A program made the position numbers and the translations under genes. 64,000 nucleotides of DNA, from IMG/VR virus record IMGVR_UViG_3300042904_000196, positions 1 through 64,000 of that record; one strand, written 5' to 3'. This stretch comes from a virus. Below the pieces are notes generated by a model that searched no databases, was not told where the DNA came from, and saw only the letters and a program-made list of their open reading frames with translations. This document shows, piece by piece, positions 36,134 through 56,336 of this stretch (the first letter of the stretch is position 1; each line of letters opens with the position of its first letter).

Positions 36134-37427
36134 TGGAGTTAATGCCACCCAAGCTATTGTAGCCGATTCTTCAGGCAAAGGCAGAGGGGTGACGTTTCAA
36201 CGCTACTCTACACGGATTATGAAAACCCTCGTAGAAACCCTTTATGTTGTTGAAGACATCTACGTAACCATTAAGGCGTACAGCAATGGTAACATGATCT
36301 TCAACATACAGAATGGATTCCGGAATCATTTGAGGCAAATTGACTTCAGACTCCAAGAGGTCTACATTCAAGGTGAAACTAACATCCACCATCCTGTGAA
36401 CGGTGGAGCCACCTATCAGTTGCCCTCAGATGTTTGGGAACCCGGTAACGCGGCCCTGTGGCCGATAACAGCTTTCAGTCCTATACTGACGGTCTGGAAT
36501 AGTATGGGCACCTATGCTCTTACGTACTTCAATGATGCCTTGGTGCCTGTTGGTGCTTACTGGTTTTCGGGTCCCGGTGCTTTTAATCCCTTCCTACGTT
36601 ACAAGGTGGACCTGCTACCGGGGGAATCCATCACGTTAACTGCCACCGCCAAGGTGACCACAGGCGGGCGTGAGGCCCACTGGCAAGCCTACCGTAAGAC
36701 CTTAGCAGCTTTCATGGAAAAGCTTGGTGTGCCCGAGGCCGTAGGCAAGATCAAAGGAACCACAATCAGTGATGATTGGTCCCCTTACCTTGCTACGAAG
36801 CTTCAAAGAGTCGTTGATTCCGGAATCAAATCCTTCATAATGTGGGCTCCGGGTGACGACTACAGCGAGCTATATAATCCTTACCCTCCATCGCTTCCTT
36901 GGTATAAGACATTCTATAAGCCAGAGGGTTTGGATGTTTTCGGTGTGCTGCTTAATCCGAACATAACACCCTTCATACTTTGTGATGAACTTTTCATAAA
37001 GGGTGGTTACACTGAGATGGGTTCTGTAAGACCCTATACCAATTTCTATGTTAATCCCATGCATCCCAAGAACATTGCATTTGTTGACAGTCTACTAAGT
37101 GACCTTGAGAGTCGCGGTGTTAATCTGGCATTTTGGGATATGGGTAATGGGCCTGACCATTACAAAGGTATGGTGTGGGTTTCAATACTCTTACATGCCC
37201 GATCCAAGGGCATAGCGTTCATGTGTGAAACATCCAACGATATTGCAGCTTGGATAACCGGATACTATCTTGAGTGGCCGCCTGACGAGCTAAGTAACAC
37301 CATGATCCGGGCGATATGTCCCAAGGCAAGTATCTGTACTATCGTAAAGGGTACGTGGCCTCCGTTCAGTTACCTATACGATGCGGACCCCATTATTGAT
37401 TACGAGGATTACTTTGGACAAGGTTAA
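36102..37427 (+). CDS. TIM-barrel-like protein, possible glycoside hydrolase
   Basis: 441 residues; the start overlaps the sigma gene, with AAGGAA 4 nt before the ATG. The N-terminal ~190 residues look like a beta-sandwich with an E-S-I-T-L-T-A-T edge. From ~200 on, alternating strands and helices (S-F-I-M-W-A-P-G-D-D, F-I-L-C-D-E-L-F, L-A-F-W-D-M-G-N-G, I-A-F-M-C-E-T-S-N-D) read like a barrel with acidic residues at strand ends, as in glycoside hydrolases. Its place among DNA-metabolism genes is odd. An exact palindrome codes V-D-S-G-I-K. Confidence 0.5.
   Translation: MHLAPIDSLNNGVNATQAIVADSSGKGRGVTFQRYSTRIMKTLVETLYVVEDIYVTIKAYSNGNMIFNIQNGFRNHLRQIDFRLQEVYIQGETNIHHPVNGGATYQLPSDVWEPGNAALWPITAFSPILTVWNSMGTYALTYFNDALVPVGAYWFSGPGAFNPFLRYKVDLLPGESITLTATAKVTTGGREAHWQAYRKTLAAFMEKLGVPEAVGKIKGTTISDDWSPYLATKLQRVVDSGIKSFIMWAPGDDYSELYNPYPPSLPWYKTFYKPEGLDVFGVLLNPNITPFILCDELFIKGGYTEMGSVRPYTNFYVNPMHPKNIAFVDSLLSDLESRGVNLAFWDMGNGPDHYKGMVWVSILLHARSKGIAFMCETSNDIAAWITGYYLEWPPDELSNTMIRAICPKASICTIVKGTWPPFSYLYDADPIIDYEDYFGQG
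36815..36828. repeat. Palindrome, exact copy (codes DSGI)
   Basis: Exact TGATTCCGGAATCA in the barrel-like gene, read V-D-S-G-I-K, about 500 nt after a copy at 36316 whose first base is G. Confidence 0.95.
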
Positions 37428-37680
37428 GGCTGCTCAGGTAGCCAAATGCATCGAGAAAGTGTTTCCTGAATTGCGGGTAGTGATTATGGTCCAACCCCAA
37501 GGGGTAGGCGGACCGATGGTTATTATCCATGGTGGTGGCAAAGGTTATTCCTTTGCAATACGAGTTAAGTTGAATGATTTTGAACGATTACCGCCAAAGG
37601 CGGTTGCTGAAGCGTTCATAGAAAAGTTGACCCAAGTGCAAAGGGAAAAGAAACATGGGACCGTTCTTCGAAGAAGATGA
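37414..37680 (+). CDS. Small basic protein, unknown function
   Basis: 88 residues from a TTG at 37414 (GAGG 7 nt upstream), overlapping the previous gene; an in-frame ATG at 37381 has no ribosome site. It begins LDKVKAAQVAKCIEKVFPEL, contains G-G-x-x-x-I-I-H-G-G-G-K-G, and ends with a strongly basic KKHGTVLRRR. No family recognised. Confidence 0.5.
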   Translation: MDKVKAAQVAKCIEKVFPELRVVIMVQPQGVGGPMVIIHGGGKGYSFAIRVKLNDFERLPPKAVAEAFIEKLTQVQREKKHGTVLRRR

Positions 37681-37801
37681 CGAGCTTTTCGACACTGGCG
37701 AATTCACCGATCCTGCTTTAGGTGAAGATTTTGAGGATGATGAAGAGGATTTTGATGAATTTGATGAAGATGATATTGATGATGAAGAGTTCGAGTTCTA
37801 A
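37655..37801 (+). CDS. 48-residue hyperacidic protein
   Basis: ATG at 37655 with AAAGGG upstream, inside the end of the previous gene. It encodes 48 residues of which 27 are Asp or Glu and none is Lys or Arg (starts MGPFFEEDDELFDTGEF, ends DDEEFEF). Phe residues are spaced among the acidic ones. Such composition is typical of DNA mimics or of partners for basic DNA-binding proteins. It lies directly before the second ParB-like gene. Confidence 0.65.
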   Translation: MGPFFEEDDELFDTGEFTDPALGEDFEDDEEDFDEFDEDDIDDEEFEF

Positions 37802-37815
37802 CCCAAGGGAAACCA

Positions 37816-38655
37816 ATGAGCAACGCTACTATCGCCACCATGAACATTCCTATCGCCGATATTGACATCGACGATAATTTCAATTGCCGCGGTAAGCTGC
37901 TTCCGATTGATGTCGAGGAGCTTGCGAAAGACATTCAGGCGAATGGGCAACATCAGCCTGTTGTCGTGATGCCTTACAATGAGTCCGAGAAGCTTATCAA
38001 AGGCAAGAGTTACAAACTCCTTGCGGGCTTCCGGCGTACCTACGCTCATATCATTCTGAAGTTGCCGACCGTGTTGGCAGTTGTCAAGAATCACATGAGT
38101 GATATCGAAGCACGCCTATTGAATTTGTCTGAAAATCTGAAGCGTGAAGACCTGAACATTCTCCAAGAGGCCAAAGCTCTTGAAGCGCTTATGTATGCTG
38201 GCGTACCCCGTGAAGAGGTCGCCCGTAGGGTAGGTAAATCGGGCGGCTGGGTTCAGGCACGCTGGGCATTGCTCACGCTTCCCAAGGATATTCAGGATGT
38301 TGCGGCTGCCGGTCTGCTTAATCAGTATCAACTGAAGCGGTTAGCAGGTATCCGCAAGCCCGAGGAACTGTATGCTACGGTGAAGCAGATTAAGACACGG
38401 CTTGCCAATGCACAGAGCTTGAACATCATCCAACGTAAGCCGCCCAAGAAACACGAGAAAAAGAAACGCACGACGACCGAGATTGCGAACATGCGTAACT
38501 ATATCTTGGACAACATCGGTTCTAATCCTTATTCTCGTGCTTTGGCGTGGGCTGCCGGTGGCACCTCCGACAAGGAACTGGAAGACGCTATCCGTGAAAC
38601 GCATCCGGCATTTGTGATTCCGGAACCAAAAGAGGTCGAACTAACCCACGAGTAA
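37816..38655 (+). CDS. ParB-like DNA-binding protein 2
   Basis: 279 residues. The N-terminal domain has Y-K-L-L-A-G-F-R-R-T-Y-A-H (ParB box II, ~70-82) followed by N-L-S-E-N-L-K-R-E-D-L-N-I-L-Q-E-A, a textbook ParB linker to the DNA-binding part. A helix-turn-helix reads V-P-R-E-E-V-A-R-R-V-G-K-S-G-G-W-V. A basic patch (KPPKKHEKKKR) and a helical C-terminus follow. Only distantly like ParB-1. Without a ParA it may act as a regulator or genome-coating factor. A palindrome variant encodes V-I-P-E-P near the C-terminus. Confidence 0.83.
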   Translation: MSNATIATMNIPIADIDIDDNFNCRGKLLPIDVEELAKDIQANGQHQPVVVMPYNESEKLIKGKSYKLLAGFRRTYAHIILKLPTVLAVVKNHMSDIEARLLNLSENLKREDLNILQEAKALEALMYAGVPREEVARRVGKSGGWVQARWALLTLPKDIQDVAAAGLLNQYQLKRLAGIRKPEELYATVKQIKTRLANAQSLNIIQRKPPKKHEKKKRTTTEIANMRNYILDNIGSNPYSRALAWAAGGTSDKELEDAIRETHPAFVIPEPKEVELTHE

Positions 38656-38663
38656 GGGTAAGA

Positions 38664-55521: not shown

Positions 55522-55650
55522 TTCTGGAATCTAAGGAGATGAAGATGCACTGGCCGTAGCGAATAGACATTTCCTCCGCATAGTCAATGTGCCCGTAGGA
55601 GACATTTCTGAGGTGTACCATGACTTGAAACAACTTTACTGCTTGTACTG
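55522..55650 (+). other. Gap with no convincing gene
   Basis: Contains AAGGAG and ATGs that open only very short frames (such as M-H-W-P). A longer frame ending YHDLKQLYCLY lacks a start with a ribosome site. It may be the remains of a gene. Confidence 0.4.
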
Positions 55651-55684
55651 AGGCCCTTGGGGGTTCCAAGGGCCTACCCCTTTT
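55651..55684 (+). terminator. Intrinsic terminator
   Basis: AGGCCCTTGG pairs perfectly with CCAAGGGCCT over a 5-nt loop, then ACCCCTTTT. Confidence 0.85.
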
Positions 55685-55699
55685 AAGAAGGAAACAAGG

Positions 55700-55936
55700 A
55701 TGTTAACTCTTATAGCCCCCGAACATATCAAAGGCTTCACAGCCCTAAAGACTCACTTTCACATGAATCGCCCTTTCCGCATACAAGGCGACACGAAGCT
55801 GGTGCGTAAAATCTCGCTCAAGAGAGGGACGCACGTTACACTCGTTGCGAAGCTTGGAATGACCTCTTACCCGATTTCTAAAAAGAGGAACCACATGTCC
55901 ACCACGGAACAACGGAGTGTCGAGCTTGTCGTCTGA
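55700..55936 (+). CDS. Small basic protein
   Basis: 78 residues, start ATG 55700 preceded by GAAGGAAA. It begins MLTLIAPEHIKGFTALKTHF and continues with a basic middle. Its end overlaps the phosphoribosyltransferase gene. No family recognised. Confidence 0.5.
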   Translation: MLTLIAPEHIKGFTALKTHFHMNRPFRIQGDTKLVRKISLKRGTHVTLVAKLGMTSYPISKKRNHMSTTEQRSVELVV

Positions 55937-56336
55937 CTACCTTACCAAGGCTTTGATTAATCCCCGCGGCATCGTCAATAGCATCACAAAAGCAATGAAA
56001 GTGAGGCCATCGTACATTGCATGTACGGGAATCAGCGGACTGCTTATAGCATCTAACGTATCATACAAAACGGGCATACCACTGGTCATAGTGCGTAATG
56101 GCACTACGTCAAAGCACGCACAAACAAAGGTTGAAACCGTCGTTCCCTTGGACGGTGATTACGCCATCATTGATGATCTGGTATGCTCTGGTGAAACCGT
56201 GGCAGGCATTGTGGATGCTTTGCCCGGAACATGTAAGTGGCTTTACCTCTGGAACGCTAGTCACATTGACGGAGGCAATGTACCGGATGAAAGATTCCGG
56301 AATCAGTTCAGCACAATAAGCATCATCGAATTATAA
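55917..56336 (+). CDS. Phosphoribosyltransferase-like protein
   Basis: 139 residues from GTG at 55917 (CGGA just before); a TTG at 55926 is the alternative. The PRPP-binding signature is Y-A-I-I-D-D-L-V-C-S-G-E-T-V (~81-94), with a hydrophobic strand and two acidic residues before S-G-E-T. It might salvage a base or modify a nucleotide. Palindrome copy 56292 (R-F-R-N-Q) is one of only two in the reading frame where a T at position 1 would be a stop. Confidence 0.72.
   Translation: MSSLSSDYLTKALINPRGIVNSITKAMKVRPSYIACTGISGLLIASNVSYKTGIPLVIVRNGTTSKHAQTKVETVVPLDGDYAIIDDLVCSGETVAGIVDALPGTCKWLYLWNASHIDGGNVPDERFRNQFSTISIIEL

Follow-up and report, generated by a model that had tools for sequence, protein, structure and literature searches.

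The 64,000-nucleotide stretch of DNA examined here (hereafter the window), which comprises bases 1-64000 of the 74,484-base virus record IMGVR_UViG_3300042904_000196, carries a short palindrome that recurs about once per 700 bases, in genes and in the gaps between them alike, and that is constrained as DNA rather than as the peptides it encodes. We propose that the ~100 copies of this palindrome are probably dispersed, parS-like sites for the dimer of a phage-encoded protein of the ParB/Noc family, most likely the protein that we call ParB1 (window positions 30946-31908), acting without a ParA. The direct support for this proposal in the sequence is the rigid, evenly spaced, DNA-level palindrome itself, the presence of two ParB paralogs (ParB1 and ParB2) in the replication module and the enrichment of sites ahead of the ParB1 gene. 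By its gene content the record is that of a tailed phage, with terminase, portal, major capsid and tape-measure genes and with replication and nucleotide genes of its own (family A DNA polymerase, primase, helicases, ligase, ribonucleotide reductase, thymidylate synthase and a sigma factor).

Abundance and geometry of the palindrome

De novo k-mer counts single out one palindrome, the 12-mer GATTCCGGAATC, which forms the core of the 14-base pair (bp) motif TGATTCCGGAATCA. The window holds 22 exact copies of the core and 77 with at most two mismatches, against ~3.6 expected from second-order Markov sequences, and a palindromic weight matrix detects 106 sites in the whole 74.5-kilobase (kb) record versus 2.8 expected from shuffles; the 72 of these 106 that score 20 or more are referred to below as strong sites. 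The matrix extends outward to a T at position -1 in 90% of the half-sites and, weakly, to A or T at -2 and -3. The spacing of the half-sites is rigid, since TGATT-N4-AATCA occurs 47 times (0.15 expected), the N5 form three times and other spacings 0 to 3 times. The sites are also distributed more evenly than random ones: the coefficient of variation of the gaps between them is 0.635 versus 0.985, and none of 5000 random placements was as even.

Beyond ~18 bp the weight matrix shows no conservation around the sites of the window phage; a mobile repeat was rejected, as the copies share nothing past this length. Methylation at GANTC was likewise rejected, although each full site contains two GANTC sequences, because GANTC occurs outside the sites at its expected frequency (269 versus 273) and because the motifs of most relatives lack it.

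Constraint on the DNA rather than on the encoded peptide

The initial annotation of this DNA had argued from reading frames that selection acts on the DNA sequence of the coding copies and not on their peptides, and this conclusion is supported by tests on codons and on pairs of relatives that are stronger than the frame argument itself. The called proteins contain the tetrapeptide DSGI 15 times, and 13 of these occurrences are encoded exactly as GATTCCGGAATC, where codon usage predicts 0.75% for each, and all three occurrences of IPES are written with the motif codons. For 16 pairs of related phages with similar motifs, sites were mapped through protein alignments, and 222 of 498 coding sites were still sites at the homologous place, compared with 50.7 expected if the same peptide of the partner is re-encoded with random synonymous codons. 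At 56% amino-acid identity (G019 to G022), 22 of 55 coding sites were kept versus 5.4 expected; the closest pairs, above 80% identity, carry less weight, since synonymous changes have not reached saturation in them, and in one pair (L276 and L214) none of the 19 coding sites was kept. The other palindromes that relatives bear at similar density are also counted towards a constraint on the DNA. Selection at the level of the peptide was rejected on the basis of the synonymous-codon tests, and the case illustrates that dense non-coding signals can shape coding sequence.

Palindromes that are repeated throughout the genome of a host are a known type of element, as exemplified by HIP1. The 16-mer form of the palindrome is present in 108 stretches of 84,980 bacterial and archaeal genomes; the 80 stretches listed have one copy each, come from unrelated taxa and stand at about the level of chance, and no host genome in which the motif is as dense as in the phage was found. 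A host-wide motif was rejected on this basis. An exact scan with the 16-mer returned mainly a 144-kb record (G001; L047 and L048) plus chance matches. This record of 144,055 bases looks unrelated to the phage and speaks for a host-derived or selfish repeat to the extent that it has 40 copies of GATTCCGGAATC with at most one mismatch, one per 3.6 kb; in the parts examined most copies are embedded in a longer palindrome, which for the nine copies in 40 kb of this record resembles AAATTTGATTCCGGAATCAAATTT. G001 has no match to the ParB N-terminal domain and has glycosyltransferases among six open reading frames (ORFs) scanned, and it is possibly a piece of bacterial DNA that uses this core palindrome in a way of its own. 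In view of the near-chance counts in host genomes, the lack of conservation past ~18 bp, the use of two reading frames and the synonymous-codon tests, we regard both a host-derived or selfish repeat and a functional DSGI or IPES peptide as exceedingly improbable explanations of the sites.

Reading frames of the copies inside genes

With the 93 genes called for the frame analysis, 56 of the 106 sites fall in the frame that starts with GAT (DSGI type), 26 in the ATT frame (IPES type) and 3 in the third frame, where the T that usually precedes the core would complete a TGA stop codon; two more overlap a gene end and 19 lie outside called genes. Among the 72 strong sites, 31 are in the DSGI frame, 19 in the IPES frame and 2 in the third, two lie over the TGA stop of the gene itself and 18 are outside genes. 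This distribution confirms the earlier description of the coding copies as reading DSGI or IPES, which together account for all but two of the 52 strong sites within genes. The excess of DSGI over IPES is mild for the strong sites and becomes larger when the weak ones are included.

The two third-frame exceptions that had been singled out in the initial annotation are the same two strong copies that we find, at 36316-36327, where a G precedes the core in place of the T, and at 56293-56304, where an A does so; a third such copy is the weak site at 35304. The TGA triplets at 45288-45290 and 55519-55521, described previously as the genes' own stops, are indeed the stops of called genes and belong to the strong sites at 45289-45300 and 55520-55531, and no copy with an in-frame TGA occurs inside any called gene. 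The earlier coordinates mixed the core G with the base preceding it, a difference of one base. The ORFs that hold the two strong exceptions (36102-37427 for the site at 36316, and 56091-56336 for that at 56293) have no homolog in 84 other contigs, 83 of them from the clade described below, so that only the open frame speaks for their being real genes. Since T stands at -1 in 90% of the half-sites, avoidance of stop codons would by itself predict ~5% of third-frame copies, or ~2.5 among 52, and two are seen. The scarcity of the third frame therefore needs nothing other than stop avoidance, and the frame argument adds little to the case for a constraint on the DNA.

Related phages and their own palindromes

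No near DNA relative of bases 30000-54000 was found among 50,697 phage records, the DNA polymerase had no match in the same records at E 1e-5, and viral contigs scanned with P0001 and with P0002 as single query sequences yielded no relative. A scan with the DNA polymerase returned 13 related phage contigs, including two near-identical pairs, and all 13 have homologs of both ParB1 and ParB2. Profile scans gave 85 contig groups, with ParB1 in 81, ParB2 in 64 and both in 61; a single group, G003, has neither. Most contigs of this clade share a conserved core that consists of the primase, ParB1, a 214-amino acid protein, an SNF2 helicase, ParB2 and the DNA polymerase; among the 84 other contigs, homologs of the primase are present in 77, of the 214-amino acid protein in 76, of the helicase in 70 and of the polymerase in 59. 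Record G003, which has two ParB-like matches, was rejected as a relative on account of its single motif copy and its lack of a match to the ParB1 and ParB2 profiles.

The relatives were searched for palindromes with an inner spacing of 0 to 4, which were then refined. Most of the longer relatives have a dispersed palindrome that differs from the one in the window, and the wider set of contigs added further ones, with examples such as GATTGC-n, GATTT-n, GATG, TGAGTT and TGATAC; in one relative the site is GATGCCGGCATC. With G015 (a near-twin of G014) and G017 (the same phage as G023) dropped before counting, 72 contigs of the clade measure at least 10 kb, and 33 of these were accepted as having their own dispersed palindrome, which is TGA-type on the outside and differs in its inner bases and spacing. 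In the 33, the second and third of the outer positions are G and A, and the span is 15 bp in 16 of them, 14 bp in 14 and 13 bp in 3. Three contigs (L213, L314 and L244) were kept off this list since their motif is not TGA-type or fits poorly.

In GC-rich phages the Markov control is not strict enough, as can be seen from a Gordonia control that scored 21.5, and a comparison of arrangements was added for this reason. The median ratio of inverted arrangements to direct, everted or re-spaced ones is 6.7 for the 33 positives, 3.1 for 40 others (G003, L213, L314 and L244 among them) and 2.5 for seven control phages, all of these ratios being inflated because the words were picked as the best per genome. 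Two contigs with a clear motif and no ParB1 in the sequence available (L288 and L297) are counted with the others in this comparison. The highest ratio in the seven controls, 3.7, is exceeded by 32 of the 33 accepted phages; L267 (2.5) falls below it, and L329 (3.8) and L224 (4.0) are marginal. Even spacing, at p <0.05 for at least one of five thresholds (uncorrected), was found in 15 of 17 phages, the exceptions being G016 and L282. A second dispersed repeat occurs in record G025, where AGTACT-n3-AGTACT is present 29 times versus 2 expected.

ParB1, ParB2 and the replication module

ParB1 (320 amino acids, plus strand) and ParB2 (279 amino acids; 37816-38655, plus strand) both match the ParB N-terminal domain PF02195 (46.4 and 32.4 bits, respectively, with a cut-off of 26.3) and the ParB helix-turn-helix domain PF17762 (44.1 and 45.4 bits, cut-off 22.6). 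Profile matches in the PDB are Noc, Spo0J, ParB and KorB for ParB1 and Noc, Spo0J and ParB for ParB2. The predicted models, with a mean predicted local distance difference test score of 83.5 for ParB1 and 81.5 for ParB2, match the same folds: the best Z of the ParB1 model is 13.8, to KorB (root-mean-square deviation 2.5 over 135 residues), with Noc and ParB scoring equally, and that of ParB2 is about 14. In these predictions neither protein has an N-terminal helix; both start with a coil that is followed by a strand at about residues 6-12.

Clamps of ParB are loaded at parS and from there move outward along the DNA. The roles of residues E102, R103, R104, E135, N136 and R139 in the cytidine triphosphate (CTP) pocket of Caulobacter ParB have been described (PMC8367383); the E102A and E135A proteins of Caulobacter bind CTP without hydrolyzing it, E102A stays locked on DNA and R103A binds poorly. 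In our alignment of the phage proteins to the Caulobacter numbering, all 81 ParB1 sequences keep the R104 and N136 positions, and the R139 position is K in 59 and R in 17; E102 is replaced by L or V in all, R103 by H or Q in all, and E135 is never E. The 64 ParB2 sequences all keep R103, R104, E135, N136 and R139, and have F, H or Y at the E102 position. Since both glutamates are missing from ParB1, it is predicted to be a non-hydrolyzer of CTP. Other members of the ParB fold are reported to bind ATP or GTP (PMC12704722). PF13614, the domain searched for as an indicator of ParA, was over its cut-off in none of 14 records, which are possibly incomplete, with one weak match in G013; with no ParA found, the system probably does not serve segregation in the manner of ParABS.

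The genes around the two ParBs make up the rest of the conserved core. The primase-like protein (27404-30100, minus strand; PHROG DNA primase) diverges from ParB1, and the 504-bp gap that separates them (30442-30945) contains a 28-bp direct repeat, several inverted repeats with long arms and a strong site (30913-30924) ~20 bp ahead of ParB1; it is a possible control region or origin candidate. ParB1 is adjoined by the 214-amino acid protein (31989-32633, plus strand), which has no PHROG or Pfam match and is a candidate partner of ParB1. The SNF2-type helicase (33548-35605, plus strand) lies ahead of ParB2, and the family A DNA polymerase (38664-41018, plus strand; PF00476) directly after it.

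Candidate readers of the sites

Two lines of evidence lead us to propose ParB1 as the reader, namely the sites upstream of its gene and the recognition helix of the GATG phages. In 20 of 30 phages the 110 bp ahead of ParB1 include a site, compared with 138 of 459 other genes that have non-coding upstream DNA (Fisher p 7e-5); a site is also present within 230 bp of the ParB1 N-terminal anchor in 26 of 33 phages versus 12.3 expected. The recognition helix of ParB1 differs in the phages with GATG sites, and the ParB2 helix in these phages is the common one. The sequence comparisons thus favor ParB1 over ParB2 as the reader, which we judge to be about twice as likely.

That ParB2 reads the sites, alone or jointly with ParB1, while ParB1 serves as an accessory or competing clamp, seems to us rather unlikely. 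ParB2 retains the canonical residues of the nucleotide pocket in 64 of 64 sequences save for one glutamate position, and in 30 phages (three of the 33 have no ParB2 in the sequence available, and both this correlation and the anchor test for ParB2 use the remainder) the motif specificity is correlated with its recognition-helix distance (r 0.44, p 0.001; partial 0.35 given ParB1) as well as with that of ParB1 (r 0.35, p 0.0005); the ParB2 distance is weakly correlated with motif span too. Partial tests leave both correlations standing, so that correlation does not decide between the two proteins. ParB2 has, however, no enrichment of sites upstream (13 of 30 phages near the N-terminal anchor versus 11.0 expected, and 3 of 9 within 110 bp with the non-coding-DNA control), and its recognition helix is near-identical across phages with GATG, GATTC and GATTT sites.

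If ParB1 is the reader, its dimer would bind each of the sites and would repress its own gene, and from these many entry points it might spread over or bridge the phage DNA, such that the whole replicating genome would receive a phage-specific ParB1 coat, in a manner reminiscent of the nucleation of Noc at ~70 chromosomal sites and of KorB at its operators on plasmid RK2. Sites that are spaced evenly at intervals of 0.7 kb and extend into the late structural genes suggest that the simplest role for such a protein would be to coat, bridge or mark the genome during replication. A fuller scenario can be put forward tentatively, in which this lineage of phages coats its replicating genome with ParB1 at even sites, possibly in the form of a closed, non-hydrolyzing clamp, and in which drift in the specificity of the protein leads to the rewriting of ~100 sites. 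Such a coat would mark, organize or protect the phage DNA, and the drift would provide a natural series of protein-site specificities.

Several observations weigh against the assignment of the sites to a ParB1 coat. ParB2 is correlated with the motif at least as well as ParB1 is, and the clade shares both ParBs along with the primase, helicase and polymerase, so that co-occurrence does not single out ParB1. The absence of several CTP-pocket residues makes the loading of a ParB1 clamp uncertain. In the 33 phages, which were accepted by score and partly by eye, sites are 1.8 times denser outside genes than inside them (3.16 versus 1.78 per kb), leaving room for transcriptional control. An accepted motif is lacking in 39 of the 72 clade contigs, many of them fragments of 10-27 kb; two long contigs with both ParBs are among them, namely G021 (48.6 kb, with close ParBs and with 15 copies of a weak motif versus 3.3) and G023 (90.8 kb, with a distant ParB1 that is only 29% identical).

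Two readings assign the sites to other functions or proteins. The sites might be distributed silencing operators, of a long-range KorB-like or a stoperator-like kind, that time gene expression or maintain a carrier state. KorB is among the best fold matches of ParB1 and acts from sites up to more than 1 kb away (PMC11790492), and sites are enriched both before ParB1 and in gaps; the reading is nonetheless doubtful in our estimation, because 52 of the 72 strong sites lie inside called genes, including structural ones, because promoter control does not predict even spacing, and because the sites are symmetric and stoperators, as described in PMC9283540, are asymmetric and oriented. It is quite unlikely that the palindrome is instead a signal for the primase, the SNF2 helicase or the 214-amino acid protein, for example in replication, recombination or packaging. 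These proteins are found in about as many contigs as the ParBs, but a symmetric 13-15-bp site of fixed spacing suits a dimeric helix-turn-helix protein, and among the module proteins scanned only the two ParBs have a recognized sequence-specific DNA-binding domain.

Relation to known systems

ParB-type proteins are known for their roles in segregation, division control and plasmid gene silencing. By analogy, the nearest system in its logic is Noc with its NBS sites, which mediates nucleoid occlusion in Bacillus subtilis, and the nearest in its setting is KorB. Noc, the best PDB profile match of both phage ParBs, belongs to the ParB family and likewise has numerous palindromic sites spread across a replicon, ~70 of them on the B. 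subtilis chromosome (PMC4331003). It differs from the phage system in that its sites occur once per tens of kb rather than once per ~0.7 kb and in that the phage models lack the N-terminal, membrane-binding amphipathic helix; the phage system, in addition, is phage-borne, has two paralogs and varies in site sequence and spacing from phage to phage. KorB of plasmid RK2, the top fold match of ParB1, is a clamp that uses 16-bp OB operators and acts both locally and at a distance (PMC11790492). It shares with the phage system a ParB-family protein and sites on a mobile replicon. KorB silencing involves operators beside or upstream of target promoters; the phage sites are enriched before ParB1, but most of the ~100 are inside genes, and a regulatory role for them is hypothetical.

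Chromosomal ParB and parS resemble the phage system in both protein domains and in the approximate length of the palindrome, and differ in that no ParA was over the cut-off in the 14 records searched, parts of the CTP pocket are changed and the phage sites cover the whole record evenly rather than clustering at one locus or origin. The stoperators of cluster A mycobacteriophages are also many short repressor sites spread over a phage genome, but each is an asymmetric 13-mer to which a monomer binds, and they follow the direction of transcription and are located at promoters and in short gaps (PMC9283540), whereas the sites described here are symmetric and mostly in genes. In phage SPbeta one DNA-binding protein, MrpR, recognizes an element (SPBRE) that is repeated through the genome; SPBRE sites, unlike those of the window phage, are promoter-associated or intergenic, and the repressor that recognizes them is recombinase-like (PMC10516654).

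A phage ParB without a ParA has been viewed as a sign of a plasmid-like prophage, in a report that, as far as it was available, gives no set of sites (PMC10286716). In the open-access literature searched we came across no account of phages with dispersed sites of the ParB type, and a 2025 survey that covers the ParB fold, phages included (PMC12704722), has no word starting with "palindrom" in its main text. We propose that the system represents ParB/Noc-type dispersed sites newly seen to be carried by phages. If this is true, a ParB at ~100 phage sites without ParA would be a new use of the family, as a genome-wide nucleoprotein. A change of specificity between ParB and Noc that takes a small number of helix residues has been documented (PMC7383237). 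As the sequence and spacing of the sites are particular to each phage, the clade amounts to a natural experiment on the co-change of a protein and its scattered sites; how a DNA-binding protein and dozens of such sites change together is a question that is difficult to address in other settings.

Positions of the sites and other features of the record

The positions of the strong sites are given here as 12-mer coordinates in the window, with no strand assigned. Besides those mentioned above, strong sites are located in the first 25 kb at 1585-1596, 2446-2457, 4368-4379, 4662-4673, 5640-5651, 6633-6644, 8847-8858, 9639-9650, 11389-11400, 14600-14611, 16984-16995, 18137-18148, 19816-19827, 20023-20034, 22093-22104, 22492-22503, 24297-24308 and 24680-24691, and this region also contains an exact 12-mer with a weak flank (23746-23757), which scores 18.5. 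Through the replication module and the DNA preceding it they are found at 25048-25059, 25576-25587, 26466-26477, 27255-27266, 28325-28336, 29346-29357, 29864-29875, 30235-30246, 31955-31966, 32759-32770, 33170-33181, 33956-33967, 34940-34951, 36816-36827, 38616-38627, 38733-38744 and 39765-39776. The series continues with 41616-41627, 42744-42755, 44610-44621, 45565-45576, 45764-45775, 45946-45957, 46124-46135, 48415-48426, 49104-49115, 50015-50026, 51251-51262, 51790-51801, 53027-53038 and 54603-54614, and ends with 57577-57588, 58696-58707, 59527-59538, 60466-60477, 60823-60834, 62112-62123, 63323-63334 and 63982-63993.

The PHROG scans comprised 39 entries for 38 different proteins of the ~94 called genes, and no integrase was found among these 38, an absence that holds for those proteins alone. 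A sigma factor encoded at 35615-36133 has Sigma70 region 2 over the cut-off and no homolog in the 84 other contigs. A third and distant ParB-like protein of 400 amino acids (L001:3851-5053, corresponding to 66851-68053 of the record) is encoded upstream of the terminase gene; it matches Pfam ParB_N below the cut-off and likewise has no homolog in these contigs. Finally, ~0.8 kb of the window at 45664-46460 is without a called gene and contains several copies of the motif, an ARAGORN tRNA-like match with an ambiguous anticodon lies at 46366-46435, and the sequence TGATTCCCGGCATCAA is present twice, at 45641 and 45807.

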